44,584 nucleotides of DNA, taken from Syntrophobacteraceae bacterium. GTDB lineage: Bacteria > Desulfobacterota > Syntrophobacteria > Syntrophobacterales > Syntrophobacteraceae. Below the pieces are notes generated by a model. The model made no database searches. It was given only the letters and a program-made list of their open reading frames with translations, and was not told the DNA's origin. Position 1 is the first letter of the stretch, and each line of letters starts with the position of its first letter. Positions 7,229 through 44,248 of the stretch are shown piece by piece. The translations under genes and the position numbers were made by a program. The stretch is from assembly GCA_031292215.1 (NCBI GenBank), contig JARLHO010000020.1:1-44584 (forward strand). The letters run 5' to 3'.

Positions 7229-8965
7229 TTAGCGTTGGCTCAACTCCGCGTTTAGTTTTTCGATGTTTGTCCTGGCAAAATCGATGTCCGGATCGAGCTC
7301 CAGGGCTATGCCATAGAGCCGGATCGCTTCCTGCTTATGGCCCAGTTCCCGCAGATTGGACCCGATGTTTGCGTAGTCAATCGCCGAGCCCGGATCCAAA
7401 TCGATGGCCCGCTCAAAGGAAGCAATCGATTCGTTGTGCCTTTTTAGCTTGAAGTAGCAAAACCCCTGGAGATTAAAGATTTCCTTTAGTTCCGGGTTGG
7501 CCTTTTCAGCGAGGGAAAGTGCATCCAGGGCCTCCTCGTATCTTTCCAGCTCCTTTAGGCAAGAGGCTATATGGACATATATGCTTCCGATTTCCCCGGG
7601 GTCGGGGGACTGGTCGAGAGCGCGGGTAAAAAGCGAAAGGGCTGCCTCAACGTCCCCGCGTAACTCCAGGCTGTGGGCGAAGAAAAAACTCAGGTCGTAG
7701 CGGGGACCGAAAGTGGAAAGAAGCCGTTCCATTTGCCGTACCAGTTCGTCACCGTCCAGCCCCCTCAAAAGGGTTCGCGCCGCATGCTGGGCGAAATCGG
7801 TGTTGCGGGTGTGGTCCAGGAAGTGAGCGCCGGGGATGATCGTATACACCGCGGGGATCTCCAACCCGGGATGAGTTGCATTTATTACCAGCACCTGGAG
7901 CCCTCTTTTCCCAAGAGCCGCCACACACCTTTCGATTTCCACCCGGATGTTGTTGTCGTCGTGATTTGGCAGATCCGTTATGGACCGTTTCCCGTCGCTT
8001 TTCATAAGATATGCGGCTTCTTTAAGGCTTGCATACTTGGGAAGTGTCGGGGTGTAGGAAGTGTGGCTCTGGAAATCTCCCGCCAACTGGGCGGTTTCGG
8101 TGAGAGCCCGGCAAAGGGATTTTTCGGGATTGGAGGTGGTGCCCGCAGTAAAGACTATCTCGCTTTTTTCGGGAAAAGTGGACGGATCGTAAGCAAGGGC
8201 GGCAACGGTTGGCACCCCGGTATCGAGAGAGAAGTCCCGCAGGAACAACTCGATTCCATTGGCTCTAAATTTGTTTACCAGTTCGATTGCCGCAGGATCT
8301 GTCAGGGAATCGACGTCGATTTCGGGTGTGAGCGTCAAGTCGTTGCTGATAATCGAGCCGACATGCCTTTCGACCACTTCGCACATCCCCTGCATGATCG
8401 CTTCCTCGAGGGTGTTTCCACTTGCCGGCCCGTTATATTCGTTGATCGAGTAGAACCAATCGATTGGCGCCCACTGCTCGCGCCCAAGCGTCAGGTTAAA
8501 CGCCTTTGCCCACCTCAGGGGCAAATCTTTTAAAAATTCGAGGCACAGATACGTTGGCGTAGTGGTGTCATGGACCGATTTTTTAAGGTCCTCCACCGAA
8601 ACGGCGAAGTCGTCGAGGTCCTTGTACTGAAAAACCGGGAAGGGAAACTGCTCGATAAACGAAAAAAAGCTGAAACGCTCGATAAGTTCCATCAGGGCGC
8701 TGGCCTCGGATTGCTCGGCGGTAGCACCTTTTCCCATCTGCTTTTTGGTGCCGATCACACGGACGGCGTCTTCGCCGCATAGGCTTATAAATACGGGAAT
8801 GTCAAGCCTGCCGGTATCTATTCGGACCGTTTTGGCAAGCACATCCCTACCCAGCCGGGACAAACGCTCCCGCACCCGGGAGATGGTCTGCTCGGGGGTG
8901 CAGGCCTTGTCCTGGTCATGGCTGTACTTTTTGAAACTGTCTTTAATCTCGATATTGGAAAACAT
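7229..8965 (-). CDS. YcaO-domain protein with C-terminal TPR repeats
   Basis: About 578 aa. Residues ~40-415 form a YcaO domain with the expected acidic ATP/Mg motifs (SEASALMELIERF; EEAIMQGMCEVVERH). YcaO proteins use ATP to activate backbone amides, giving azolines or thioamides. Residues ~425-578 are at least three tetratricopeptide repeats (LERYEEALDALSLAEKANPE; LKRHNESIASFERAIDLDP; LGHKQEAIRLYGIALELDP) instead of the Pro-rich tail of azoline-forming YcaOs. The start ATG at 8965 is chosen because it leaves 28 nt to the upstream rnd stop, whereas a more upstream start would overlap rnd. No precursor peptide, TfuA or dehydrogenase partner is visible. Substrate unknown. Confidence 0.88.
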   Translation of the reverse strand: MFSNIEIKDSFKKYSHDQDKACTPEQTISRVRERLSRLGRDVLAKTVRIDTGRLDIPVFISLCGEDAVRVIGTKKQMGKGATAEQSEASALMELIERFSFFSFIEQFPFPVFQYKDLDDFAVSVEDLKKSVHDTTTPTYLCLEFLKDLPLRWAKAFNLTLGREQWAPIDWFYSINEYNGPASGNTLEEAIMQGMCEVVERHVGSIISNDLTLTPEIDVDSLTDPAAIELVNKFRANGIELFLRDFSLDTGVPTVAALAYDPSTFPEKSEIVFTAGTTSNPEKSLCRALTETAQLAGDFQSHTSYTPTLPKYASLKEAAYLMKSDGKRSITDLPNHDDNNIRVEIERCVAALGKRGLQVLVINATHPGLEIPAVYTIIPGAHFLDHTRNTDFAQHAARTLLRGLDGDELVRQMERLLSTFGPRYDLSFFFAHSLELRGDVEAALSLFTRALDQSPDPGEIGSIYVHIASCLKELERYEEALDALSLAEKANPELKEIFNLQGFCYFKLKRHNESIASFERAIDLDPGSAIDYANIGSNLRELGHKQEAIRLYGIALELDPDIDFARTNIEKLNAELSQR

Positions 8966-8993
8966 AGGATCACCGCTTTTGCAGGTTGTATGG

Positions 8994-9887
8994 TTATTTA
9001 ACGGCCGCTTCGTCTTCCTGCTCTTCGCTTTTGCGGATAAGATCAAGGAGATGAATGGCGACGTGCGAGGAAAGATAGACGCGGGGCATGCCCTTTATTT
9101 TATTGAAATCCTGGACGTTTTTGGGACGCGCAAGGGCGATGCTCAAAAGCGTCTCGTTGGTAAGTATGCGGAAGGGAGCGCGGTCTCGGCGGCGGGCCTC
9201 TTTTTCCCGAAACAGGTAGAGGGCCTTAAGGATGCGCTTTCCGGCAAGGTCCAAAGACTGTGCTCCGTAGATGTGTAAAAAATCGCCGGGGCGGAAATTT
9301 TTCTTCACTATCTGCTGGGCGCAAAGCTTTTCGAAGGCCTCACGGGCCGAGCCGAGCAGTTCTTTTTCTTCGAGTTCCGCAACCAGCCGGTGTCGCAGCG
9401 GGATAAGAAAGTGAGTATCGAAGCGGGCGTATTCGATCTGCTCGTCTTTCAGGGGGCGTTTTCCCCAGTCGTGGCGCTGCCATTTCTTGTTAAGACTTAT
9501 GCCGAAGTACTCAAGCAGAATCGGCGCGAGCCCCAGGTGCTTGTAGCCCAGGATCTTTGCGGCTATCGAGGTATCGAAGACGTTTCGCATCACGAATTTG
9601 AAATCCCGCTTGAGTCCCGCGATGTCGTTTGGGGCGGCATGGAAGATCTTTTCCACATCGGGGTTGGCGAGGACTTCACCAAAATCCTGAATATCTCCGA
9701 CCGAAAGAGGATCGATGACATAATCCTCTTCACCGGTCGACACCTGAATCAGGCATATACGGTTAAAGTAGGCGTGGAAGCTGTTGGACTCCGTATCGAC
9801 TGCGACGTGCGTGGACTTTTCGACCTCTAGGAGAAATTTTGAGAAATCACGCCGGCTTTCGATAAGAACTACGCTGTTAAATTCCAT
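8994..9887 (-). CDS. rnd: Ribonuclease D-like 3'-5' exonuclease
   Basis: Processes 3' ends of tRNA and other small RNAs; cytoplasmic. The 297-aa product has a DEDDy exonuclease domain: motif I VAVDTES (Asp31, Glu33), motif II FHAAPNDIAGLKRDF and motif III YARFDTHFL (Tyr and Asp). A C-terminal HRDC-like region follows (about residues 200-285, with PFRILTNETLLSIA). It is shorter than E. coli RNase D (375 aa), as in many non-enteric homologues that have a single HRDC domain. It is 28 nt upstream of the YcaO gene in the same direction and may be cotranscribed with it. Confidence 0.9.
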   Translation of the reverse strand: MEFNSVVLIESRRDFSKFLLEVEKSTHVAVDTESNSFHAYFNRICLIQVSTGEEDYVIDPLSVGDIQDFGEVLANPDVEKIFHAAPNDIAGLKRDFKFVMRNVFDTSIAAKILGYKHLGLAPILLEYFGISLNKKWQRHDWGKRPLKDEQIEYARFDTHFLIPLRHRLVAELEEKELLGSAREAFEKLCAQQIVKKNFRPGDFLHIYGAQSLDLAGKRILKALYLFREKEARRRDRAPFRILTNETLLSIALARPKNVQDFNKIKGMPRVYLSSHVAIHLLDLIRKSEEQEDEAAVK

Positions 9888-15216: not shown

Positions 15217-16128
15217 ATGGACATCGAAGACAAGCAAACTTTACTGCAAAACTCAATCTTTTCCGATTTGCCCGGCGAAGAACTGGCCGAACTTGCGCGA
15301 ACCCTGGAAACCAGGGTCGCGCAGCCAGACGAAATGATTTTTGAGGTGGGCGATCCAGCCGATGCCTTCTATATTATCGGCTCCGGTCAAGTCAGGATAT
15401 TTGTAAAACATAAAAACAGAGCCGAGCGGGAACTAACCGTTCGCGGAGAGGGCGAACACTTCGGCGAGGTGTCTCTTATGACCGGCGAACCGCGTACGGC
15501 CAACGCCCAAAGCCTTGCCGAAACGCACCTTCTCGTGGCCTCACGGGAGCAATTCGAACGTCTCATACACGATTACCCGGAATTGTCTCGCAAGTTCGTG
15601 CGAGAAATACGCGGATGGCTTCTTGAGGACGAGAAAATTATCGAGGAAGAAGCAGAGGTCCTGATCCGCTCTTCCGGGGCGTCATGGTTTGATTTCGTCA
15701 TCGTCCTCGGGGTGAGTATTCTTCTGGCGGTAGCCTTTAATTTTCTTAGCCCCAACGGAATTTCACTTATTCCGGAACAACCCGATGCGGTCCCGGCGAT
15801 CAGCGCCTCCCAAGCCATGAATGAGTACTCGCAGGGCAAGGCTTTGATCGTAGACGCCATGCCTAATAATTTCTACCGGCTAACACACATAAAAGGCTCG
15901 CTGAACCTGCCGCCCGCCCAATTCGACATCTTATACATGGCGAGCTTTCCCAAGGAAGATAAATCCATGGCAATAGTGGTTTACGGAAGCACGATAAGCG
16001 CTCCCTACGACCTGGAAACCGCCGGCAAGCTTTTGCTGCGCGGCTACAGCAATGTGAGGATTTTGGAAGGTGGCCTTAAGGCCTGGGAGGCCGGGGGCTA
16101 TCCGGTGGAAAAAAAGGTTTCGAGATGA
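15217..16128 (+). CDS. Cyclic-nucleotide-binding-like domain, membrane helix and Cys-less rhodanese
   Basis: 303-aa three-part protein. Residues ~8-135: CRP-type effector domain (IFEVGDPADAFYIIGSGQV; GEHFGEVSLMTGEPRTA). Residues ~160-180: one transmembrane helix (FVIVLGVSILLAVAFNFL). Residues ~195-300: rhodanese fold (SQGKALIVDAMPNNFYRLTHIKGSLNLPP-type entry and ILEGGLKAWEAGGYPVEKK end). The catalytic Cys loop is replaced (IVVYGSTISAPYD), so sulfur transfer is unlikely. No DNA-binding domain follows the effector domain. Its position between a thioredoxin-like gene and a MauE-like gene, which it overlaps by 4 nt, points to a membrane-linked redox or signal role. Confidence 0.87.
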   Translation: MDIEDKQTLLQNSIFSDLPGEELAELARTLETRVAQPDEMIFEVGDPADAFYIIGSGQVRIFVKHKNRAERELTVRGEGEHFGEVSLMTGEPRTANAQSLAETHLLVASREQFERLIHDYPELSRKFVREIRGWLLEDEKIIEEEAEVLIRSSGASWFDFVIVLGVSILLAVAFNFLSPNGISLIPEQPDAVPAISASQAMNEYSQGKALIVDAMPNNFYRLTHIKGSLNLPPAQFDILYMASFPKEDKSMAIVVYGSTISAPYDLETAGKLLLRGYSNVRILEGGLKAWEAGGYPVEKKVSR

Positions 16129-18662: not shown

Positions 18663-18695
18663 TGTGGCGCGACTTTGGCGAAAGGTCTTCATCTC

Positions 18696-19670
18696 ATGGG
18701 AAACCCTGAAGTAAAAGCCATCCGGAGGGCGGCCGAAAACGGCGAGCCGCTACCGGACGGGGCGGCCTTCCATATTTTGCGCTCCCCCGTAACGGAGCTA
18801 CCCGAGATTTTCGCGGCGGCAAGCATGGTTCGCAGGCGCTATTTCGGGAATACGGTCGGGCTTTGTTCCATCTTTAGCGCCCAAAGCGGGGCCTGTTCGG
18901 AGGATTGCGCGTTTTGCGCTCAGGCGTCCTGCCATAATACCGATACTTCGTTCCACCCGCTTTGCTCCAGGGAGGAGATGGCGCAAGCCTTCGAGGAAGC
19001 AGCGCAACTTCCCCTCACCCACTTCGGGGTTGTCACCAGCGGCTGTGCGCTTTCAAGCGAGGGGGTCGAGCGGGTGTGCGGGGTAATCGAGGAAAAGCGC
19101 CATGCACGCCTTGGCTGGTGCGCCTCTTTTGGGTGCCTCGACTACGACCAACTCTTGCGGTTGAAGGCAGCGGGGCTCAAAAGATTTCATCATAATCTTG
19201 AGACCGCGCCGAGCTTTTTCCCGCAAATTTGCTCGACACATAGCTACGATATTCGCTTGGAAACCGTTAGAAACGCAAAAAGGGCGGGACTGGAAGTCTG
19301 TTGCGGCGGGATTTTCGGCCTGGGGGAAACGGCCGAACAACGGGTCGAGTTTGCCCGGCTCCTAGCAAGGGAGACCATCGAGTCGATCCCTCTAAATTTT
19401 CTTATTCCCATCCCCGGCACAAGGCTTGAGAAGGTAAAAACTCTTAAGCCCCTCGATATCCTGCGCATCGTTAGCATGTTTCGGCTAACCAACCCCGGGG
19501 CTGAGGTGAGGGTTTGCGCCGGGCGCGTTCACCTGGGAGATCTCCAGTCGATGATATTTCTTGCCGGGGCCAACTCGATGATGATCGGCCGTCTTCTTAC
19601 GGTTGCCGGCCAGGGGGTTGACCGGGATCTTAAGATGCTTGAAGACCTCGAGGTCGATTATGAACTCTGA
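18696..19670 (+). CDS. bioB: Biotin synthase
   Basis: Radical SAM enzyme that inserts sulfur into dethiobiotin, the last step of biotin synthesis. The 324-aa product has the radical-SAM triad CSEDCAFC (Cys67, 71, 74), QSGAC before it, the YNHNL-equivalent FHHNLETAPSFF and the NFLIPIPGT block. The ATG at 18696 has AAAGG 10 nt upstream; a TTG at 18675 has no such site. First gene of the bio operon, directly behind the BirA-like operator; it overlaps bioF by 11 nt. Confidence 0.95.
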   Translation: MGNPEVKAIRRAAENGEPLPDGAAFHILRSPVTELPEIFAAASMVRRRYFGNTVGLCSIFSAQSGACSEDCAFCAQASCHNTDTSFHPLCSREEMAQAFEEAAQLPLTHFGVVTSGCALSSEGVERVCGVIEEKRHARLGWCASFGCLDYDQLLRLKAAGLKRFHHNLETAPSFFPQICSTHSYDIRLETVRNAKRAGLEVCCGGIFGLGETAEQRVEFARLLARETIESIPLNFLIPIPGTRLEKVKTLKPLDILRIVSMFRLTNPGAEVRVCAGRVHLGDLQSMIFLAGANSMMIGRLLTVAGQGVDRDLKMLEDLEVDYEL

Positions 19671-21554: not shown

Positions 21555-22348
21555 AAACCCGCGTAGCCTCCTCATCGGTTTTGGCCCGTTTTGCTGCCGC
21601 CGCACACACCTACGACCTGGAGTCGCGAGTCCAGCGGGCGGTAGCCCAAAAGCTTGCCGCCATGCTTCCAGCCTCCGCGGCCACCGGGAGCGTACTGGAG
21701 ATCGGGTGCGGCACCGGCCTTTTAACGGAGCTTTTGCTAAACCGTTTCCCTTCGGCTGTAATCGATGCCCTCGACATTTCGGGGCCCATGATAGATGCGG
21801 CGAAAAAACGCATGGGGGAATGTGAAAGGCTCTTGTGGCACACAGCCGATGCCAGGAGGTTTTGCCCGCAGAAACAATTCGAGCTTATCGCCAGCAGTTC
21901 GGCCCTCCACTGGATGACACCGGCAGGTGAAATCATGGAGCGTATCTCCTCGATGCTCGAGCCGGGCGGCGAGCTGGCCTCAGCCGTTATGGTCGAAGGG
22001 ACCCTCGGTGAGCTCCGAGATGCCTGCGGGCGGCTTTTCCCCCGTAAGGGAGAAGCGGTTCACCTTCCAAGCGAGGAGGAAATCCTTTGCGCCATTGCCG
22101 GGGCCGGGCTTACGATCGGGCAAATCCGCTTGGAGCAGATGCGCGAGACCTGCGGTTCGACGCGCGAATTACTGCGCAGCCTAAACCGGCAGGGGGTAAC
22201 GGGCAGACCGGAGGGTGGCTCCAACCTGCTCAATCGCACCGAACTGCTAGAGCTTATCGAGTATTATGACCGCAAGTTTTGCACTCCCGAGGGGGGGGTG
22301 ATTGCCACCTACTGTGTTCTCTATGTGACTGCGAGGAAGGAAAGATGA
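21551..22348 (+). CDS. bioC: Malonyl-ACP O-methyltransferase
   Basis: SAM-dependent methyltransferase that caps malonyl-ACP so that fatty-acid enzymes can extend it to pimeloyl-ACP. 265 aa from a GTG in overlap with the bioH stop (GTGA). Motif I VLEIGCGTGLLTELL, then SSALHWM and a FAAAAHTYDLESRVQ N terminus typical of BioC. It overlaps the next gene by ATGA. Confidence 0.9.
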   Translation: MKTRVASSSVLARFAAAAHTYDLESRVQRAVAQKLAAMLPASAATGSVLEIGCGTGLLTELLLNRFPSAVIDALDISGPMIDAAKKRMGECERLLWHTADARRFCPQKQFELIASSSALHWMTPAGEIMERISSMLEPGGELASAVMVEGTLGELRDACGRLFPRKGEAVHLPSEEEILCAIAGAGLTIGQIRLEQMRETCGSTRELLRSLNRQGVTGRPEGGSNLLNRTELLELIEYYDRKFCTPEGGVIATYCVLYVTARKER

Positions 22349-24438
22349 AGGCTCCCCGGGGATTTTTCATTACGGGTACGGATACCGATGCGGGTAAAAC
22401 GGTTTCAGCCGCTGCGGTTTTGGTTTCACTTCGCACCTCAGGAATCGATGCTGTCCCGATGAAACCGGTTCAAACCGGGGGTGTTTTTTCTAAAGATCGC
22501 CTGCACAGCCCGGATATCGACTTTTGTCTGCGCATGGCAGCTCTTTCGCCCGACCCGGAAGAGATTTGCGATATGGTCCCCTACATCTATCGGCAGGCCT
22601 GTTCGCCCCATCTGGCCGCAGCAAAGGAAGGCCGAGAAATCTCGATTTCGCGCATAGTCGAAGCATTCGGCAATCTGAAAAAAAGACACGAATGCGTTGT
22701 CGTAGAAGGAGCGGGTGGACTTCTCGCGCCAATTGGGGAAGATACGACGATGGTCGACCTCATGGCGGCACTGGGTCTTCCCGTGATTCTTGTAGCCCGC
22801 CCGGGGCTTGGGACCATTAATCACACGATGCTCTCGGTGAGGGAACTAAAACGCTCGGGCCTCCACCTGCACGGCATCGTATTTTGTGAAACCACAAGCG
22901 GTGGCTGGGGAGAAATCGAGCAAAACAACATGGAAACCATCGCAAGACTTGCAAAGACGCAGGTCCTGGGACGAATTGGCTACATGGAGGAACTAAGCAG
23001 GCCCGACCCGCCCTCCGGACTGCTCCAAAAGGCCCTGCCGCCAGATGTTTTCCGAGGCGAGACCGGCATGGAAAGGCCTTATGAAGTCTTCGGGGAAAAA
23101 GGGACGCAGGAGCTCGCGGGCGGGGTGGATGCATACAACGAGATCGACCGGGCAAGCCTTTGGCATCCTTACACGAAACATTCCTCGGCAAGGGAGGGAT
23201 TCCCGGTAATCGCCAGGGGAGAGGGCGTATATCTTTTCGACACGGCGGGCAACCGGTACCTGGACGCCATCTCTTCCTGGTGGGCCTGCAACCTTGGCCA
23301 CGGCAATAAGAGACTGGTCGGGGCGCTCGTTAGTCAGGCGCGTAAACTTCAGCACAGCATACTGGGCAACCTCACTCATCCGCGAGCGGTCGAACTGGGG
23401 TCAGGGCTTGCGAAAGTCTTTCCCGACACGCGAAGAAGAACGCTTTTTGCGAGCGATGGCGCCAGCGCGGTCGAAGCGGCCCTGCGGGTCGCCCTTCAAT
23501 ACTGGCACAACCGTGGCGAGAGCGGCCGCACGAGGTTTGCAGCTTTTGAGGACGGCTATCACGGGGACACCATCGGGGCGATGTCCGTTGGGTATCTGCC
23601 CGCTTTTCACAAACCATACAGCCCGGTTCTTTTCCCGGTTCACAAAATCAAAACGCCGGACTGCTGCGCCTGTCCGGTCGAAAAATCGCGCACGGACTGC
23701 GGGATGGAGTGCTTTTCTCTTATCGAGTCCGTCGTGGTTAACCACGCGCGCGAGCTTGCCGCCGTGATCGTTGAGCCGCTATGCCTTGGCGCGGCAGGCA
23801 TGAAAATGTACCCGGCCGATTGCCTGAGAAGGCTCGCCGAGCTTTGCAGGCAAAACCGGGTTCTTCTGATCGTAGACGAGATCGCCATGGGCTTTGGGCG
23901 AACCGGCAAGATGTTTGCCTTCGACCACGCAGGGATCGACCCCGACATCGTTTGCATCGGAAAAGGGCTCTCCGGGGGATATCTGCCCATAAGCGCCGCA
24001 GTGGTAAAGGAAGAGATCTTTACGACCTTCGCCGATGAACCTCTGGACCACACCTTCTACCACGGCCACACGTTTGCGGGAAATCCCGTCGCTGCCGCCG
24101 TGGCGGTCGAATGCCTGGATATCTACCGGGAAGAAAACATAGTGGAACGAGCCGAGACGACCGGAAAAGCGCTTGCCGCAAGCGTTGAAGGTTTGCGAGA
24201 CGTTTGCGGGGTCGAAAACCTCAGGACCCTCGGAATGATCGCAGCCTTTGATTTAACAGAAAGAAAAGGAGTTACAGGCGTTGAGCGGGCCAGGCGGATC
24301 TGTTCGGATATGCTAAAAAAAGGCGTCCTAATCCGCCCCCTTGGGCCGACACTTTACCTCATGCCGCCATTAATAGCCGATACGGCGCTCCTTGAAGAAA
24401 CGGCAGCTTCTCTTCTGGACGCCGTTAAGGCTCTTTGA
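22345..24438 (+). CDS. bioDA: Fused dethiobiotin synthetase / DAPA aminotransferase (BioD-BioA)
   Basis: One uninterrupted 697-aa frame from ATG 22345 (AGGAAGG upstream). Residues 1-~215 are BioD: P-loop GTDTDAGKTVS, MKPVQTG and VVVEGAGGLLAPIGE. After a ~50-residue linker, residues ~265-697 are BioA: SLWHPYTKHSSA, ISSWWACNLGHG, DGYHGDTIGAMSVG, IVDEIAMGFGRTG and PLP lysine 540 in CIGKGLSGGY. The protein would carry out two consecutive steps, KAPA to DAPA (BioA) and DAPA to dethiobiotin (BioD). The domain order BioD then BioA matches the eukaryotic BIO3-BIO1 fusion. Last gene of the operon. Confidence 0.93.
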   Translation: MKAPRGFFITGTDTDAGKTVSAAAVLVSLRTSGIDAVPMKPVQTGGVFSKDRLHSPDIDFCLRMAALSPDPEEICDMVPYIYRQACSPHLAAAKEGREISISRIVEAFGNLKKRHECVVVEGAGGLLAPIGEDTTMVDLMAALGLPVILVARPGLGTINHTMLSVRELKRSGLHLHGIVFCETTSGGWGEIEQNNMETIARLAKTQVLGRIGYMEELSRPDPPSGLLQKALPPDVFRGETGMERPYEVFGEKGTQELAGGVDAYNEIDRASLWHPYTKHSSAREGFPVIARGEGVYLFDTAGNRYLDAISSWWACNLGHGNKRLVGALVSQARKLQHSILGNLTHPRAVELGSGLAKVFPDTRRRTLFASDGASAVEAALRVALQYWHNRGESGRTRFAAFEDGYHGDTIGAMSVGYLPAFHKPYSPVLFPVHKIKTPDCCACPVEKSRTDCGMECFSLIESVVVNHARELAAVIVEPLCLGAAGMKMYPADCLRRLAELCRQNRVLLIVDEIAMGFGRTGKMFAFDHAGIDPDIVCIGKGLSGGYLPISAAVVKEEIFTTFADEPLDHTFYHGHTFAGNPVAAAVAVECLDIYREENIVERAETTGKALAASVEGLRDVCGVENLRTLGMIAAFDLTERKGVTGVERARRICSDMLKKGVLIRPLGPTLYLMPPLIADTALLEETAASLLDAVKAL

Positions 24439-30664: not shown

Positions 30665-31372
30665 ATGCTGACGATTGGTCATTTCGCGGAAATCGCTCAT
30701 AATTCCCCCTGGCTTGCGATAGGTCTCTCGTTTGTCGGAGGCGTTCTGGCAAGCTTTACCCCGTGCACCTACCCGATGATCCCGATAACGGTTGCGTTTA
30801 TCGGCGGCAAAGCAAACGGCAGCAGGCGCAGGGGTTTTTTGCTCTCTCTTTTTTACGTGCTGGGGCTAGCCATTGTCTATTCGACGCTGGCGGTCTTCGC
30901 GGCACTTACCGGCCAAATGTTCGGGGCTCTTACGGCCAGTCCGTGGGTGTACCTGGTTGTGGCCAACGTTTTGCTCTTTTTTGGGCTCGTGATGCTCGAA
31001 GCGATTCCGCTGGGTCCGCCCGGTTTTTTAAATAATTTGAAGGTAACGGGGTTTTCGGGACACGATGTGTTTACGAGCATGATACTGGGCGGGGCATCGG
31101 CCCTGGTTGTGAGCACCTGCACGACTCCCATTCTCGCCTCGCTTCTGGCGGTTGTGGCCGTAAAACGGCAGATCGCGCTCGGAATCGGCATGGTGTTTTC
31201 TTTTTCCCTGGGTCTGGGGGCGCTGGTGATCGTTGTGGGCACATTTACGGGGTTGCTCGCCTCACTGCCTCGTTCGGGAAAATGGATGGTCAGGGTACAG
31301 AAGGTTTTTGGAATCCTTATGATTATTGCAGCGCAGTATTTTCTAATCAAAACAGGAGAATTTCTGATATGA
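30665..31372 (+). CDS. ccdA: CcdA/DsbD-type thiol-disulfide membrane transporter
   Basis: 235 aa, about six transmembrane helices. Carries electrons from cytoplasmic thioredoxin across the membrane for cytochrome c maturation or periplasmic disulfide reduction. The key Cys lie in LASFTPCTYPMIPITVAFIG (helix 1) and VVSTCTTPILAS (helix 4), the canonical pair. GAGG lies 8 nt before ATG. It overlaps the following tlpA-like gene by ATGA, a natural partner. Confidence 0.93.
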   Translation: MLTIGHFAEIAHNSPWLAIGLSFVGGVLASFTPCTYPMIPITVAFIGGKANGSRRRGFLLSLFYVLGLAIVYSTLAVFAALTGQMFGALTASPWVYLVVANVLLFFGLVMLEAIPLGPPGFLNNLKVTGFSGHDVFTSMILGGASALVVSTCTTPILASLLAVVAVKRQIALGIGMVFSFSLGLGALVIVVGTFTGLLASLPRSGKWMVRVQKVFGILMIIAAQYFLIKTGEFLI

Positions 31373-31860
31373 AACTAAAAACCGGCAAAAACTTTGTTGT
31401 CTCCATCCTCTCGGCCCTGCTGTTTACAACCCTGATATCGTCTTTGCCGGCCAGAGCCGCTGGGCCGGCGCCGGGTTTCACCCTGCAAAGCATCGACGGC
31501 TCCACGGTATCGTTGAGCCAGTTTAAAGGACAAAAGCCGGTCCTTCTCTACTTTTTCGCCACATGGTGCCATTTTTGCCAGGCAATGGGCCCCAAGGTGT
31601 CCGCCCTGCGAAAATCCACCCCCGAATCCCAGTTGGCCATTGTGGCGATCGATGTTGGAAGCGGGGATTCCCTGGAGAAGGTAAAACGCTATGAAAAGGA
31701 CAGCGGGGCAACCTACACGGTTCTCTACGATCAGGGTTCCAAGGTGACGCGCTCCTACGGCGTAGAGGGAATACCCAATATTGTCCTGGTGGACAAAAAC
31801 GGCGATATCAAATACCAGGGCAGCGATCTTCCGCCCGACGTACTCAGCCTTGTGAAATAA
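31369..31860 (+). CDS. TlpA/ResA-like periplasmic thioredoxin
   Basis: 163 aa with signal peptide (1-31, ending PARAAG) and thioredoxin fold: active site TWCHFC (Cys67, Cys70) instead of CxPC, and cis-Pro loop EGIPNIVLVDKNG. It would receive electrons from CcdA encoded just upstream (4-nt overlap) and reduce periplasmic targets such as apocytochrome c. 26 nt before glgC. Confidence 0.92.
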   Translation: MKLKTGKNFVVSILSALLFTTLISSLPARAAGPAPGFTLQSIDGSTVSLSQFKGQKPVLLYFFATWCHFCQAMGPKVSALRKSTPESQLAIVAIDVGSGDSLEKVKRYEKDSGATYTVLYDQGSKVTRSYGVEGIPNIVLVDKNGDIKYQGSDLPPDVLSLVK

Positions 31861-34690: not shown

Positions 34691-35037
34691 CTCACAACCT
34701 CCCTTCGTAGCTGGTGTAAGAAACATCTACAATTCCCCCCCATATTTATTAATCACTGCCAAACGCGAATTAGACGAATCGCCCGGCGATAAAGTTCACA
34801 TTTCAACGACTCCAGGGGAAAAAAGATTGCCGCCGCAACCAAGGTGTGTGGTCGAAGGTAAAGGGCTCGATTTTGCATACGAAGAAAATTGGGTTGCCCT
34901 TTGACCATAGTGCTGTTAAATTCGCCACGTTATACTTTTTTTCCTCTGAGCGCCGGATGTCGTTTGACCCCGAGCGTATTGCAACCGGAGACCTTCGTCA
35001 GGCCTGGTTCAAAATTGGCTATAGCAAGGAAATCCAC

Positions 35038-36363
35038 ATGTCGAAGAATCGAAAGCTTTTGTTTTTCATCCCGGCCATTGTCCTGAGTTTAACGTTCGGG
35101 GGCCGTTTAACGCTCGTAAAGGCCGCCGATCAACCGGAAAAACAAGATACTTATCACTATTTGAAGCTCTTTAGCGACATCATGACGATCGTGCAGGATA
35201 ACTATGTAAAAAAGACAGACCAGAAAAAGCTCATGTATGGGGCTATAAACGGGATGCTGCGCGAACTCGATCCCCACTCTTCCTTCCTTACGCCTACCGA
35301 TTACAAGGAACTCCAGATCGAGACCAGGGGAAAATTCGGCGGCTTGGGCATCGAGATAACGATCAGACACAACGTCTTGACCGTTGTGTCCCCGATCGAG
35401 GGCACCCCGGCCGACAAGGCGGGCATAAAGGCCAACGATGAGATTTTAAAAATCGACGATCAGCCCACGCAGGGCATGTCGCTTATGGACGCCGTGACAA
35501 AGATGAGAGGCCCCAGGGACAGCAAAATAAAGCTGATGATTTTTCGAAAGGGGCTGACAAAACCGATGGACATGGAATTGGTCCGGGCGGTCATTGCGAT
35601 TAAGAGCGTAAAGTCGATGACGCTCGCACCGGGGTTTGGCTACGTAAGGATTTCGAGCTTCGAAAGCGGCACCTCGACCGATCTGCGCAAAGCGCTCGAC
35701 AAGCTCCAGGCGGCCAATCCCGGCGGCCTGCAGGGCCTTGTAGTCGATTTAAGGAATAATCCCGGCGGGTTGCTCGATCAAGCCGTCGAAGTAAGCGATC
35801 AGTTTCTCGACGGAGGCCTGATCGTCTATACCGGCGGACGACTCGCAGACCAGAAGATGCGCTTTGAGGCCCACAAAAAAGCCCATCCCCTCACCTTTCC
35901 CATGGTCGTGCTGGTTAACGGAGGGTCGGCAAGCGCATCGGAAATTGTCGCCGGAGCGCTGCAGGATCACAAAAGAGCCATAATCATGGGCGAACAGACC
36001 TTTGGCAAAGGCTCGGTGCAGACGGTAATTCCGTTAAACGACGGCTCGGCCCTAAGGCTTACGACCTCTCTTTACTACACGCCCTCCGGAAGGTCCATTC
36101 AAGCCCAGGGGATAACGCCCGATATTGTGGTGAAAAAGACAGGCCTCGATAAAGGCGGCGCAAAAAGCGATGAATCGACTTTCATCCGTGAAAAGGACCT
36201 CCCCGGTCACTTTAGGGACCAGAATCCGACCGTAGCCAAAAAATTAAAGGCTACGGCCGCACAGATCGCGGCCAAAAAGTTTGTAGACGGGGATAACCAG
36301 GTAAGCCGCGCGCTCGACCTGCTAAAAGGCTACAGGATAATGGCCCAAACGCAGTATAAATAG
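35038..36363 (+). CDS. ctpA: C-terminal processing peptidase (S41)
   Basis: Periplasmic serine protease. 441 aa from ATG 35038 (AAGGAA upstream). Signal-anchor (LLFFIPAIVLSLTFGG), then PDZ (about 95-165; GLGIEITIRHNVLTVVSPIEG) and S41 catalytic domain with Ser299 in GGSASASEIVAGAL and Lys324 in TFGKGSVQT. The 310 nt upstream (34727-35037) shows no other supported gene. 74 nt ahead of yibQ, the usual neighbour in Gram-negative envelope loci. Confidence 0.93.
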   Translation: MSKNRKLLFFIPAIVLSLTFGGRLTLVKAADQPEKQDTYHYLKLFSDIMTIVQDNYVKKTDQKKLMYGAINGMLRELDPHSSFLTPTDYKELQIETRGKFGGLGIEITIRHNVLTVVSPIEGTPADKAGIKANDEILKIDDQPTQGMSLMDAVTKMRGPRDSKIKLMIFRKGLTKPMDMELVRAVIAIKSVKSMTLAPGFGYVRISSFESGTSTDLRKALDKLQAANPGGLQGLVVDLRNNPGGLLDQAVEVSDQFLDGGLIVYTGGRLADQKMRFEAHKKAHPLTFPMVVLVNGGSASASEIVAGALQDHKRAIIMGEQTFGKGSVQTVIPLNDGSALRLTTSLYYTPSGRSIQAQGITPDIVVKKTGLDKGGAKSDESTFIREKDLPGHFRDQNPTVAKKLKATAAQIAAKKFVDGDNQVSRALDLLKGYRIMAQTQYK

Positions 36364-36437
36364 GCCCGGTTGGCCTGGCTGCCCTTGTCAAAAATCACTC
36401 TCGGTGATTGTGCAAAGGCAGCCGGAGAAGAAAAATC

Positions 36438-37478
36438 TTGCCGTCTGGGAATCGGACTAAAACCGGTAAAGCAAAAGAAGGGGGGAAAGGCAAAAGTCGC
36501 CTCAAGGCCGCTGCGCCTCCCCCTAAAAGGCCTGCTACGCCGGTTTTGGTCGCATGGGGCCTTGCCCTGATTTTGCTGGTCTCTCTTTTATATTTTGCCG
36601 ACAGGGGCCGCAATCTGCCCCCCAGCCCCCAGCCCCCAAAAGTTGCAAAAACCTCCGGCGCCCCGACTTCCGGCCTCCGGGGTCCGACCAGGCGGCCAGG
36701 CCCAAGGCCCGCTCACAGCGCCGCCCCACCCCCTACGATCCGGCAGGCCGTAAGCCCCGCCAACGTTTTACCGGCGCCTAGGCCACATACCGGCGCAGTC
36801 CCCGCCAAACCCGCTCGGGCTCGACTCTCTGTCGTTATAGACGATTTTGGCCCCAACCTGGCTATCGCTCGTCAATTCGCCTCTATTCCTTTTCCCGTCA
36901 CCTTATCGGTTCTGCCTTTCCTGGCCCATAGCGGCCAGATCGCAGCGATGGCGCGCCAGAGAGGCCGGGAAGTCATCTTGCATCTTCCCATGGAGCCCGT
37001 AGACAGCCGCATCAACCCCGGGCCGGGCGCCCTTATGGTGTCCATGTCTTCCGACCAAATCCGGCTAAGCGTTGTCGCAGCCCTTACTACTTCCCCCTAC
37101 TTTGACGGCGTAAACAACCACGAGGGCTCCCGGTTGACCCAGGACGCCAAAGCCATGAGGACCGTCCTTGCCGAGCTAAAGGATCGCAAACTTTTTTTTC
37201 TGGACTCTATGACCATAAATACGAGCGTCGGGTGGAAAGAAGCCCGTCTCATGGGAGTGCCCACGTTCAAGCGCGATATCTTTCTTGACGACAACCTTTC
37301 GGCGGCCGCCATTCGCCTGCAGATAGAAAAGGCAGTTAAGATCGCCAAAGCGCGTGGAGCGGCCCTTGCCATCGGACATCCGCATGAACTCACTTTGCGG
37401 GCGCTGCTCTCTTCCGCGGCCTATTTCAGACAAGAAGGCGTCGAGATGGTTTTCGCCCGCGACCTGGTTGGCAGGTGA
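36438..37478 (+). CDS. yibQ: YibQ-like divergent polysaccharide deacetylase
   Basis: 346 aa. A Lys-rich cytoplasmic N terminus, one membrane anchor (residues ~34-55, VLVAWGLALILLVSLLYFAD), a Pro-rich linker to ~130, then the YibQ domain with SVVIDDFGPNLAIAR, PVTLSVLPF, ILHLPMEPVD, GVNNHEGSRLT, FLDSMT and IGHPHELT. It has the fold of carbohydrate deacetylases; activity is unproven. The start is uncertain: TTG 36438 has GGAGAAG 8 nt upstream. Likely cotranscribed with ctpA. Confidence 0.88.
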   Translation: MPSGNRTKTGKAKEGGKGKSRLKAAAPPPKRPATPVLVAWGLALILLVSLLYFADRGRNLPPSPQPPKVAKTSGAPTSGLRGPTRRPGPRPAHSAAPPPTIRQAVSPANVLPAPRPHTGAVPAKPARARLSVVIDDFGPNLAIARQFASIPFPVTLSVLPFLAHSGQIAAMARQRGREVILHLPMEPVDSRINPGPGALMVSMSSDQIRLSVVAALTTSPYFDGVNNHEGSRLTQDAKAMRTVLAELKDRKLFFLDSMTINTSVGWKEARLMGVPTFKRDIFLDDNLSAAAIRLQIEKAVKIAKARGAALAIGHPHELTLRALLSSAAYFRQEGVEMVFARDLVGR

Positions 37479-37506: not shown

Positions 37507-37560
37507 GCCGATGGTCCCCACAAAAGCCACGGACTCCCGGTGTCATCGGCTTCTTTTTTC
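37507..37560 (+). terminator. Candidate terminator after yibQ
   Basis: GCCGATG (37507-37513) pairs with CATCGGC (37544-37550), followed by TTCTTTTTTC. The loop is long (30 nt) and may contain a second small stem. Confidence 0.45.
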
Positions 37561-37708
37561 CCGATACGAAATTATCCCTTAATTTATTATGCTCTTATTG
37601 ATTGGAAATTTTAGCGCGCCATAAGACCGAGTGAGAAGAACCCCCGAGGGATTAGCGGGCAGGTGGGAGGCCTTGGCCCGCGTCACTTGACTGCTGAGGA
37701 GAAATTTA

Positions 37709-38767
37709 ATGAAAATGTACGCCCTTTCTAAAACGGTTTTTGCTTTAGCCTGCTTTTTTTCGTCCACTTTCCTCCTGCCCGGCTTTGCATTTGGCGCCCA
37801 AAAGCCTTTGCCCCAACAGCGGCCTGCGGCTCATCCCAAAATCCTGGTCCAGGAGCCCGATTACAATTTCGGAACGGCAGTACAGGGAACCACGGTCGAG
37901 CACGCCTTCGCGGTGAAAAATACCGGCAATGCGGTGCTACATATTCGCCACGTAAAGGTTGGTTGAGGCTGCACGCTTGTCCGGTATGAGCCGGCAATCC
38001 CTCCCGGCGGCGAGGGAAAGATGATAATGAAGGTGGAACTGTCCGACTCCCATGGAAACATAGTCAAAACGGCGACCATTGACAGCGATGACCCCGATAA
38101 GCCTTTGGTGGGCCTAAAACTCGAAGGCATTGTAAAAGCCATCGTCACGATGAAGCCTTCGGCAAATGTCGTGCTTAGAGGTTCGGCGGGCAGTATTTCC
38201 GAGTCCAGCGTCGATCTTGAGGCCACAACAACGCCGTTTCATATCGAGAGCACCGAGACGAACCTTTCGGGGAAAATTAACTACTCCCTTCAAACGGTTT
38301 CGGATGGAACCCACTACAGGCTTAAGGTCTCAAACCTTCTCCCCAAAGGGAGCTACTCCGGATTTATAAGACTTAAGACCGACCTGCCAAAGGCCCCGTA
38401 CTTGCTCGTACGCGTGATGGGGGTCATCAAGGGCGAAATAGCGGCGACACCGGAAACAGTCATTATCGGAATGCTCAGCCCCGGAAAACCCGTGCGTACA
38501 GGCTCCGTTAGCGTCACCCGCGGCGATGGCAAACCGTTTTCGATCACAGGCCTTTCCTATGATAAAAGTCTCCTGTCGGTTTCTCGCAAAAAAGTCGAAA
38601 GCCCAAACGGCTACGTGCTAAATATCGAGCCAAAGCTCGATGGCCAAAGCCCGGGGTCGGTCAAGCAAGCGCCCCTGACGGTCGAAACAAACGCTGTACC
38701 GGGCGGGAAGGTTTCTGTGCTGGTCCTTATTTTCAACAATTCGGGTGGCGCCAATACCAAGCGTTAA
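37709..38767 (+). CDS. DUF1573-family exported protein with in-frame UGA (candidate selenoprotein)
   Basis: One frame of 353 codons crossed by a single TGA at 37964-37966 (codon 86). Start ATG 37709 with GAGGAG 8 nt upstream; signal peptide 1-29 (FALACFFSSTFLLPGFAFG). Residues ~52-120 are a DUF1573 immunoglobulin-like domain (DYNFGTAVQGTTVEHAFAVK; PPGGEGKMIMKVEL). In this family the strand is followed by the conserved C-G-C-T motif; here it reads VKVG-UGA-GCT, so UGA sits on the first Cys. Downstream the frame continues for 267 codons without a break, with a second beta-rich region. A hairpin follows the UGA in SECIS position. Sec-containing translation is inferred; a nonsense mutation is the alternative. 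Confidence 0.75.
37964..37997 (+). promoter_or_regulatory. UGA codon and candidate bacterial SECIS hairpin
   Basis: Ten nt after the UGA: TTG-T-CCGG, loop TATGAG, CCGG-CAA (37977-37997), a 7-pair stem with a bulged T. From memory of E. coli fdhF, its SECIS hairpin begins 11 nt after UGA and also has a bulged U. Loop sequence and SelB recognition cannot be judged by eye. Confidence 0.55.
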
Positions 38768-43037: not shown

Positions 43038-43958
43038 TCATCGCACTGTGATGTAGTCTTTGATCCTGTCAAAGGTGTGTTGTTTAATGCCCTTCACCTT
43101 CATGATATCTTCGATTTTATGATAAGGTCGGCCTTCGATGATTGCCCGGGCCTTGACGGAACCAATGTCGGGGAGTTTGTCCAGCTCCTCTTTTCCGGCC
43201 GTATTGATGTCCACCTTTTGCCCGGCGATTAGTTTACCGGCACGCCCTTTCTCTTTTGCACTCGCCGCCGGTTTTGCCGGTGGCTCCGACTCCGGGGGCG
43301 TAGAAGGCTTTTGAACAGCCGGCGCAGGGACTGACCGAGCGGGGGCCCCTGCTACGGTAACCTTGTCCTTGAGCGCCTCTACCTTGCCTTTGCTCATGCC
43401 CTTCACTTTGCTTAAATCATCAACGCTCCTGAATGGTCGGGCGGCGACGATTTTTTTGGCTGTAGCCCGACCGACACCCGGAAGGGCTTCCAAAGCGCTA
43501 AGAGAAGCAGTGTTGAGATCTACGGGCTCTCTTTCTTCAGCCGCCGGAGCTTTTGATTCTTTGGCCTTGGTAACGGCTTTAGCTTCGCTTTTTTTCCTTT
43601 CTTCCCTGGAGGTCTTTTTCTCTTTCCCGGCGGCTTCAAAGGCAGATGGAGCCGAACCTGCCCCGACTGACAGGGAGGATGCAAAGGACTTGATCTTTTT
43701 GGCGCTCAGGCCGGCTTTACTGAGTTCCTCAAGAGATTTGTAGGGACGGTTGGAAATGATTTCTTTTGCTGTAGTCGGCCCGACACCCTTTACGGCTTCC
43801 AGTTCAGCCAGACTCGCGGTGTTGACGTTAACCGGTCTCTTTTTTTTCGCCGCAACAAGAGATGCCCCCTGGCTAAAGGTCAGAACCAACACCGACACGG
43901 TTACCACCAGTGCAATCCGCCACGCCGTCCGTAACGATTTGTCAGTACCCGTATTCAT
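43038..43958 (-). CDS. Exported protein with three ComEA-type helix-hairpin-helix domains
   Basis: 306 aa. Signal/anchor segment at ~10-35 (IALVVTVSVLVLTFSQGA). Three HhH units: VNVNTASLAELEAVKGVG (about 44-100), VDLNTASLSALEALPGVG (about 143-200) and VDINTAGKEELDKLPDIG (about 245-300), joined by Lys/Glu- and Pro-rich linkers. ComEA proteins bind incoming DNA in the periplasm; most have one HhH unit, so a triple version is unusual. Start at 43958 because AAAGGGG is 6 nt upstream; an ATG at 43964 abuts it. No other competence gene nearby. Confidence 0.87.
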   Translation of the reverse strand: MNTGTDKSLRTAWRIALVVTVSVLVLTFSQGASLVAAKKKRPVNVNTASLAELEAVKGVGPTTAKEIISNRPYKSLEELSKAGLSAKKIKSFASSLSVGAGSAPSAFEAAGKEKKTSREERKKSEAKAVTKAKESKAPAAEEREPVDLNTASLSALEALPGVGRATAKKIVAARPFRSVDDLSKVKGMSKGKVEALKDKVTVAGAPARSVPAPAVQKPSTPPESEPPAKPAASAKEKGRAGKLIAGQKVDINTAGKEELDKLPDIGSVKARAIIEGRPYHKIEDIMKVKGIKQHTFDRIKDYITVR

Positions 43959-44248
43959 GGACATCCCCTTTCAGTCGTACGAATTTTTGCTAAAAATTGG
44001 GCTCAAAAGAGGCCGCCTCGGCAAACCGTGCGCTGCACGGGCAGGCAGGATGCGGACTGCAGCCCAAGGAACATCTCCAAAGATTCCTGGAAATGAGGAA
44101 GGTAAAAACAACTTTAGAACTGTCTACCGGGATAGTCATTGCGGCCCGATGAAGCAAGTTGGAAGTGGTATTTTCATTCGAGACTGTGCCGTAGCCGGCC
44201 ACCCGGGCAGAGGAAAAGGACAGATACGCGGGGATCTGCGCTCCCCCC

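Follow-up and report, generated by a model that had tools for sequence, protein, structure and literature searches.

A long DUF1573 protein from a Syntrophobacteraceae bacterium with a predicted selenocysteine-cysteine pair, and its gene neighbourhood

Proteins of the DUF1573 family (PF07610) carry a C-G-C motif, and selenoproteins of this family have been listed before. A table in PMC2398784, which puts the family in print by 2008, gives OS_HP2 (pfam07610) with the motif UxC and three figures (2, 2 and 354), of which the third reads, from the column arrangement, as the number of Cys homologues; the passages of that paper drawn on here give OS_HP2 no function. A table in PMC9312934 contains a "DUF1573 domain-containing protein" (pfam07610, motif UGC) credited to Zhang and Gladyshev 2007, a work whose title, as cited there, names a symbiont of Olavius algarvensis, and a table in PMC13188914 again has a DUF1573 selenoprotein with the motif UGC. 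NCBIfam holds a corresponding model, NF041425, "OS_HP2 family (seleno)protein". A second described system of relevance is the EnvC-SddA module of Escherichia coli, in which, according to the parts of PMC12440217 used here, the PF04748 protein YibQ (SddA) deacetylates denuded peptidoglycan strands, is encoded with envC and is tied to the control of septal amidases.

The window analysed here is a stretch of 44,584 nucleotides from a Syntrophobacteraceae bacterium (assembly GCA_031292215.1, contig JARLHO010000020.1), and it contains a gene of the DUF1573 kind with a single in-frame TGA. An earlier reading of the same DNA, made from its letters alone (the sequence-only reading), had presented the gene as a candidate new selenoprotein and knew of no described DUF1573 selenoprotein; that novelty falls away, as PMC9312934, PMC13188914, PMC2398784 and NF041425 already have such proteins. 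The features of the gene are as follows.

37709..38767, plus strand: coding sequence of the predicted DUF1573 selenoprotein, ATG to TAA, 353 codons including the stop, 352 residues, Sec at 86
37697..37701, plus strand: AGGAG, likely ribosome-binding site seven bases 5′ of the ATG, read from the sequence
37847..38128, plus strand: DUF1573 domain (PF07610), residues 47–140, spanning the TGA (E 2.5e-16; 59.9 bits against a cut-off of 26.1)
37964..37966, plus strand: TGA codon 86, taken as selenocysteine; the sole in-frame TGA of the coding sequence, the same in 49 of 57 places
37970..37972, plus strand: TGC codon for Cys88, the Cys of the U-G-C pair; UGC in 49 of 49 long-form Sec genes
37977..37997, plus strand: SECIS-like hairpin with a bulged U at 37980, from folding and a synonymous-codon test on 49 genes, with a third-position pair kept

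The residues around codon 86 are HVKVG-U-GCTLVRYEP, with VGUGCT corresponding to residues 84–89. The sequence-only reading had placed the lone TGA of the 353-codon frame at the first Cys of the C-G-C motif, and both the frame and the Cys homologues agree with this placement: all five Cys homologues read CGC at the codon 86 column. Ordinary gene calling splits the gene into frames of 85 and 248 residues, the latter starting with an ATG at 38021, and the whole protein would therefore be missed; the long-form alignment provides a means of recovering this form from other genomes.

Conservation of the TGA was assessed by a search of 59 whole genomes, that of the window included, which gave matches in 47. 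The alignment at codon 86 comprises the 57 best places, all of them long forms and the window among them, with frames read with TGA left open. Its column holds 49 TGA, five Cys, one Thr, one Ser and one gap, the gap belonging to a gene that runs off its contig end, and U or C thus occupies the Sec site in 54 of 56 aligned rows. The motif is UGC in each of the 49 Sec long forms and CGC in each of the five Cys forms, and the UGC columns are three of the 13 invariant columns in an alignment of 52 U/C rows, from which the Thr and Ser rows were left out. The four closest relatives among the 59 genomes (66, 65, 58 and 57% identity to the window protein) all have the TGA, as do distant homologues at 27 to 34% identity from other families of the class and phylum; from 66 down to 27% identity, TGA homologues occur not only in the genus and family of the window but also in a second family of the order, in three families of the class and in two further ones of the phylum. 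Across the phylum, 151 of 395 genomes (that of the window included) match at an E value of 1e-20 or better, and among the first 30 places listed in that scan 27 have a TGA inside the match and three have none, with a TGA counted anywhere in the match. Relatives outside the home phylum were also encountered in the genome scan, in an Acidobacteriota MAG (L160, 29% identity) and a Bacteroidales MAG (L165, 26%).

The two rows with neither U nor C come from a single genus, and tRNA-Sec is present in both genomes. One, L040 (genome G014), has Thr-Gly-Cys at the Sec motif, and the other, L043 (G022), has Ser-Gly-Trp and has lost the second Cys too. As judged from these aligned sequences, the Sec site can decay, or the function can be lost. 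The sequence-only reading had proposed aligning homologues at codon 86 for exchange between Cys and Sec, and such exchange is seen, with 49 TGA against five Cys. It had also held that a residue other than Cys at this codon in close strains, or further decay of the gene, would speak against selenocysteine; neither occurs within the genus, but Thr and Ser stand at the site in the two genomes just described, which belong to another genus of the family.

The genome that contains the window (4.89 Mb, 96.9% complete) has the machinery for selenocysteine insertion. A tRNA-Sec with anticodon tca is present, together with SelA (614.4 bits against a cut-off of 267.9), SelB (361.9 against 242.25) and SelD (384.1 against 125), so that all four components named in the sequence-only reading as a check on its proposal were found. 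SelD itself carries one in-frame TGA (...RAAGUAAKIG...), a sign of Sec decoding in this organism. In the relatives, tRNA-Sec lies above the cut-off in 48 of 58 genomes. Under strict filters none was found in five genomes that have a TGA gene, G019, G021, G023, G039 and G052, which are 88, 88, 95, 89 and 93% complete; these absences are weak counter-evidence because the filters were stricter and the drafts are only 88 to 95% complete.

The hairpin starts ten bases past the TGA, with a 5′ arm at 37977–37979 and 37981–37985 and a 3′ arm at 37990–37997. Closure of a U-G pair makes the tip AUGA; with that pair open it is the six-base UAUGAG. Folding thus recovers the stem with a bulged T and a 6-nt loop that had been described at this distance from the TGA, the loop being of four or six bases. 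Folds of 61 or 101 bases keep the upper stem, with a different lower stem in the 61-base fold. Taken by itself, the hairpin of the window has z values of 0.96, 0.22 and −0.02 against dinucleotide shuffles and is marginal against synonymous codons (z = −1.69, p = 0.062); it is conservation that lifts it above chance, with TGA in 49 of 57 places and a mean synonymous-codon z of −1.97 over 49 genes.

In the synonymous-codon test, codons were swapped for synonyms drawn from the same gene and 30-base folding windows were refolded. Those beginning at codons +2 and +4 past the TGA gave mean z values of −1.64 and −1.92 for the 49 Sec genes. The remaining folding windows, from codon −20 to +58 with TGA-containing ones left out, ranged from −0.39 to +0.39, save for −0.69 at +8 and −0.98 at +10, folding windows that share bases with the end of the hairpin or with another potential one, CCCTC ... 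GAGGG, at 37999–38016 (bases 36 to 53 from the T of the TGA; mean z of −0.98 at offset +10). Gene by gene, p falls below 0.05 in 24 of the 49 Sec genes and below 0.1 in 38. The z values are not independent, as these genes share descent. Seven genes without Sec have a z of −0.93 at the peak position; the Thr form keeps a strong hairpin (z = −2.45), which fits a recent loss of Sec.

Base pairing was also compared across genes. Bases 15 and 33, both third positions of codons, are pairable in 41 of 49 Sec genes (GC 16, CG 11, UA 9, UG 3, AU 1 and GU 1), and five or six of the six stem pairs can form in 34 of 49 Sec genes versus one of seven others. The register is not uniform: many genes pair 15-33 to 20-28, and in the window the pairs run from 18-31 to 21-28 and U17 is bulged. 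A formal pair count, made in a common register for 19 plus-strand loci among the 49 Sec long forms, gave 76.3% paired cells, a value matched by 1 of 500 shuffles, and a covariation score of 0.242, matched by 3 of 500; in the same 19 genes, the numbers of pairs with two-sided changes and of pair types did not exceed those of the shuffles (432 and 481 of 500). Sliding the register by −1 raised the covariation score to 0.271 and lowered the paired cells to 56.1%. The outcome of the formal count is mixed, in part because the clade of the window uses a shifted register, and we therefore rely on the synonymous-codon test, by which the stretch just downstream of the UGA appears to be under selection for a hairpin, with the window alone marginal and the 19-gene count mixed.

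Comparison with known SECIS elements was less telling. The Rfam model SECIS_1 (RF00031) had no match in the genome of the window and none in 14 controls either, and is thus uninformative here; the whole of Rfam gave a single weak snoRNA match, far below its cut-off, over 37900–38100. The usual bacterial SECIS consensus has an early G in the apical loop. The loop of the window, AUGA or UAUGAG with one U-G pair deciding, appears not to have that G, which may count against a SECIS assignment.

On the conservation of the TGA, the hairpin in SECIS position and the Sec machinery of the genome, the gene almost certainly encodes a selenoprotein in which Sec stands for the first Cys of C-G-C, as the sequence-only reading had proposed. 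NF041425 matches the window protein over its full length at 95.5 bits, under its cut-off of 100 (90.7 bits in the genome search). Among eight relatives, two exceed the cut-off (L057 at 116.5 and L061 at 116.4) and six score 74.8 to 99.1; L057, L061 and L052 (98.3 bits) all belong to the deacetylase neighbourhood described below. With this score we place the protein among the DUF1573 UGC selenoproteins, at the margin of NF041425. It shares with OS_HP2 and the listed DUF1573 selenoproteins the domain, the motif UGC and Sec as first residue of C-G-C, and differs in having two further beta domains and a deacetylase neighbourhood, both absent from the published descriptions found, as far as their excerpts go. 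From the Cys proteins of PF07610, which have the same domain and a CGC motif (as in the five long-form Cys homologues), it differs by Sec as the first Cys. Possibly new are the deacetylase and S41 context of the long form, the CcdA-adjacent paralogues and the relocated partner Cys of the short paralogues, all described below; this judgement rests on the parts of the literature surveyed on DUF1573, OS_HP2, CcdA and Syntrophobacter selenoproteins, of which the last two hold nothing on this gene.

In terms of architecture, the hydrophobic N-terminus reads, by eye, as a signal peptide, and three beta domains come after it; no catalytic domain is recognised. The structure model of residues 30–352 (mean pLDDT 91.5, pTM 0.69) consists of strands only, with no helix of at least four residues, and this predicted all-beta protein is not a thioredoxin-fold oxidoreductase. 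The first domain is, in the model, of the PapD-like/ASH fold: it superimposes on a PapD-like domain of human HYDIN (2e6j; Z 11.4, rmsd 1.8, 99 aligned) and also matches PF22544 (E 2.2e-07), a fold in common with the HYDIN, ASH and PapD-like Ig domains that says nothing of function. The second and third domains are Ig-like on weaker fold matches. Matches to the whole model are chains of Ig-like domains, for example 9ijj_C with Z 11.8 at an rmsd of 21.5, and are uninformative on function, and solved structures searched by sequence yielded a single weak match, 2qsv (E 0.0046). Sec86-Gly-Cys88 is predicted to lie in a short loop between model strands 48–55 and 60–64. Beyond the signal peptide the protein has no Cys other than Cys88, which makes it the sole possible internal partner of Sec86.

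A C-G-C pair is able to act as a catalyst of disulfide exchange. Two genes further upstream in the window are of interest in this regard.

30665..31372, plus strand: CcdA/DsbD-type membrane protein, a possible electron source 6.3 kb upstream (PF02683, E 5.8e-41)
31282..31860, plus strand: thioredoxin-like protein with a WCHFC motif, start unsettled, adjoining the CcdA gene (PF00578, E 1.2e-22)

In four genomes of the genus of the window the distance to the upstream CcdA gene is 5.6 to 6.3 kb, and in three the thioredoxin-like gene is found 5.1 to 5.8 kb upstream. Closer associations were found when 42 loci were scanned with profiles built here, the CcdA profile coming from five genes that include L076's own (genome G020). 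The only CcdA matches printed are in four loci, L076, L189, L191 and L192, each on the same strand as a long-form DUF1573 match and 235 to 485 bases upstream of it, and three of the four are independent of the genes from which the profile was built. L192 is a Cys form with a CcdA neighbour, and in L191 a thioredoxin-like gene, recognised by a look at the sequence, precedes CcdA. Periplasmic reductants of the CcdA and thioredoxin-like kind thus adjoin several long-form paralogues and lie about 6 kb from the gene of the window; with its all-beta structure, the DUF1573 protein would not itself belong to such a system but be its client or partner.

A second clue comes from 20 short single-domain paralogues (L166–L185), all picked from TGA-bearing ones, four of them from genome G015. 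All 20 have TGA at the Sec column, with the motifs UGS (7), UGC (5), UGT (4), UAS (2) and UGL (2), so that the Cys at +2 is lost in 15 and replaced by Ser, Thr or Leu. Instead, a Cys stands at +27/+28 in 19 of the 20, versus none of 56 long forms with a Cys at +24 to +30. On the model of the window protein the +27/+28 place would fall between strands 73–81 and 87–97, at the same end of the domain as the Sec loop. The partner Cys thus appears to relocate and yet to stay within reach, which is what a Sec-Cys redox pair would need, and the short paralogues offer a natural experiment on the need of Sec for a thiol partner. Their hairpin test gave a mean z of −1.80, and their neighbours showed nothing in common beyond two groups of four and three loci.

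These observations can be rationalized with a periplasmic selenol-thiol redox protein. SelB and Sec-tRNA, whose genes are present, would decode TGA 86 with the aid of the hairpin ten bases on; the product, a full-length protein of the DUF1573/OS_HP2 kind with signal peptide and three beta domains, would be exported; the selenol of Sec86 would attack a periplasmic substrate, which may be a disulfide, a peroxide or a sulfur compound; the thiol of Cys88 would resolve the intermediate as a selenenylsulfide; and a CcdA-thioredoxin relay would re-reduce it. A redox role is probable on this evidence, and we give the whole account up to that role, selenoprotein and thiol-selenol exchange together, a probability of roughly 0.6. 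The sequence-only reading had left the role of the exported Sec-Cys pair as either redox or metal; the redox half is now the better backed, by the CcdA neighbours and the relocated Cys, though we still infer it, and the metal half is less likely.

In its metal form the proposal is that the Sec-Cys pair binds a periplasmic metal or metalloid, such as copper, mercury or arsenic, with no redox turnover. UGC would make a compact pair of soft-metal ligands, and the paralogue locus L191 also has, by a look at the sequence, an RND-like transporter and an arsenate-reductase-like gene. RND-like genes were, however, seen only in L191 and L076 among 14 loci inspected, with none identified beside the gene of the window; the CcdA neighbours favour redox, and the residue at +2 is Ser, Thr or Leu in 15 of the 20 short paralogues. 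We consider metal binding unlikely and retain the redox role.

What the redox protein might act on is suggested by the genes directly upstream.

36408..37478, plus strand: divergent polysaccharide deacetylase, PF04748 (YibQ/SddA family), adjacent upstream (E 1e-74)
34846..36363, plus strand: S41 carboxy-terminal processing peptidase with PDZ, second upstream (E 3.6e-60)
37537..37559, plus strand: terminator-like hairpin and T-run between the deacetylase and DUF1573 genes, weak (one found, shuffles mean 2.3)

A deacetylase homologue lies upstream in 28 of 50 long-form neighbourhoods (24 of a first set of 30 and four of 20 further loci) and an S41 homologue in 24 of the 50 (20 of 30 and four of 20); in the first set the deacetylase homologue shares the strand of the DUF1573 match and precedes it by 43 to 489 bases. 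No deacetylase was found upstream in the other 22 of 50, some of which have short flanks. In one genome, G017, genes for an ABC ATPase, FtsX (FtsX_ECD, E 2.3e-09) and an M23 peptidase (E 7.6e-27) lie further upstream, an arrangement that reads as FtsEX-EnvC, with the names FtsE and EnvC being a reading of the sequences. Genes that cluster with the G017 FtsX were found in eight of 30 neighbourhoods and with its M23 gene in seven, both counts limited by flank length. The upstream neighbours identified in the window do not include FtsX or M23 genes; they do include GlgC-like, thioredoxin-like and CcdA genes. The resemblance to the E. coli EnvC-SddA module, as far as PMC12440217 was drawn on, lies in a PF04748 deacetylase gene linked to FtsX and an EnvC-like M23 gene, in G017; the difference is that an adjacent DUF1573 gene belongs to the lineages searched here, and the main text of PMC12440217 has no word beginning with "selen".

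In a tree of 56 long forms, which comes with a warning of long branches, the window falls inside a well-supported group (100/99) made up of nine deacetylase-linked genes of its genus. The deacetylase linkage needs six changes on the tree, and a single origin of the linkage is therefore not established. In the clade of the window a deacetylase and an S41 peptidase stand beside the gene, and the most promising lead is therefore a target in the maturation of the envelope or of peptidoglycan. We advance it tentatively; the gap of 230 bases between the deacetylase and DUF1573 genes, which holds the weak terminator-like site, leaves a shared transcript putative and counts against the envelope link. 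The PF04748 link and the CcdA neighbours provide two handles for making a function testable.

A more specific proposal, which we regard as speculative and rather doubtful, is that the long form is part of an FtsEX-EnvC-Ctp-deacetylase module, in which it would act as a CcdA-fed periplasmic selenol sensor or catalyst coupling the remodelling of peptidoglycan, or cell separation, to envelope redox state, with the paralogues having swapped the partner of Sec from the neighbouring Cys to another loop at the same domain end. If true, the long DUF1573 form would be a selenoprotein of cell-wall biology. Within the same module the protein could instead be structural, a scaffold whose Sec merely guards against over-oxidation, as its three beta domains without a recognised catalytic domain and the conserved gene order might suggest. 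U or C in 54 of 56 rows, the place of UGC among the invariant columns and the occurrence of other long-form paralogues in other neighbourhoods argue against a scaffold, and we think it quite improbable; a selenol-thiol redox protein remains the preferred reading.

The readings that dispense with selenocysteine fare worse. If the TGA were a true stop, an 85-residue secreted peptide would be made and a second protein started separately, for which the ATG of the 248-residue frame could serve. The Pfam domain, however, crosses the TGA, the Cys homologues form a single frame, and the codons past the TGA favour a hairpin; two genes are thus very improbable, and we rejected them on the conserved TGA, the open frames of the homologues and the hairpin preference. 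A pseudogene, sequencing error or assembly error, which would look alike as a lone stop in one frame of a draft genome, is ruled out for practical purposes by the same TGA in 49 of 57 places in many genomes assembled separately, where the reading frame stays open before and after it.

Several other genes deserve mention. In other genera, the loci L057 and L058 have, downstream on the opposite strand, two radical SAM-like genes and one HemB-like gene by a look at the sequence, maybe an alternative haem pathway. Within the window, positions 7229–9046 on the minus strand encode 605 residues in which a YcaO cyclodehydratase domain is fused to a run of TPR repeats, and positions 15217–16128 on the plus strand join a cyclic-nucleotide-binding domain and a rhodanese domain in one frame. 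A single 719-residue frame at 22279–24438 on the plus strand contains AAA_26 and class-III aminotransferase domains and is presumably a BioD-BioA fusion; a radical SAM gene with a BATS domain is nearby at 18675–19670. Close to the end of the window, positions 43038–43964 on the minus strand encode a 308-residue protein with three helix-hairpin-helix stretches.
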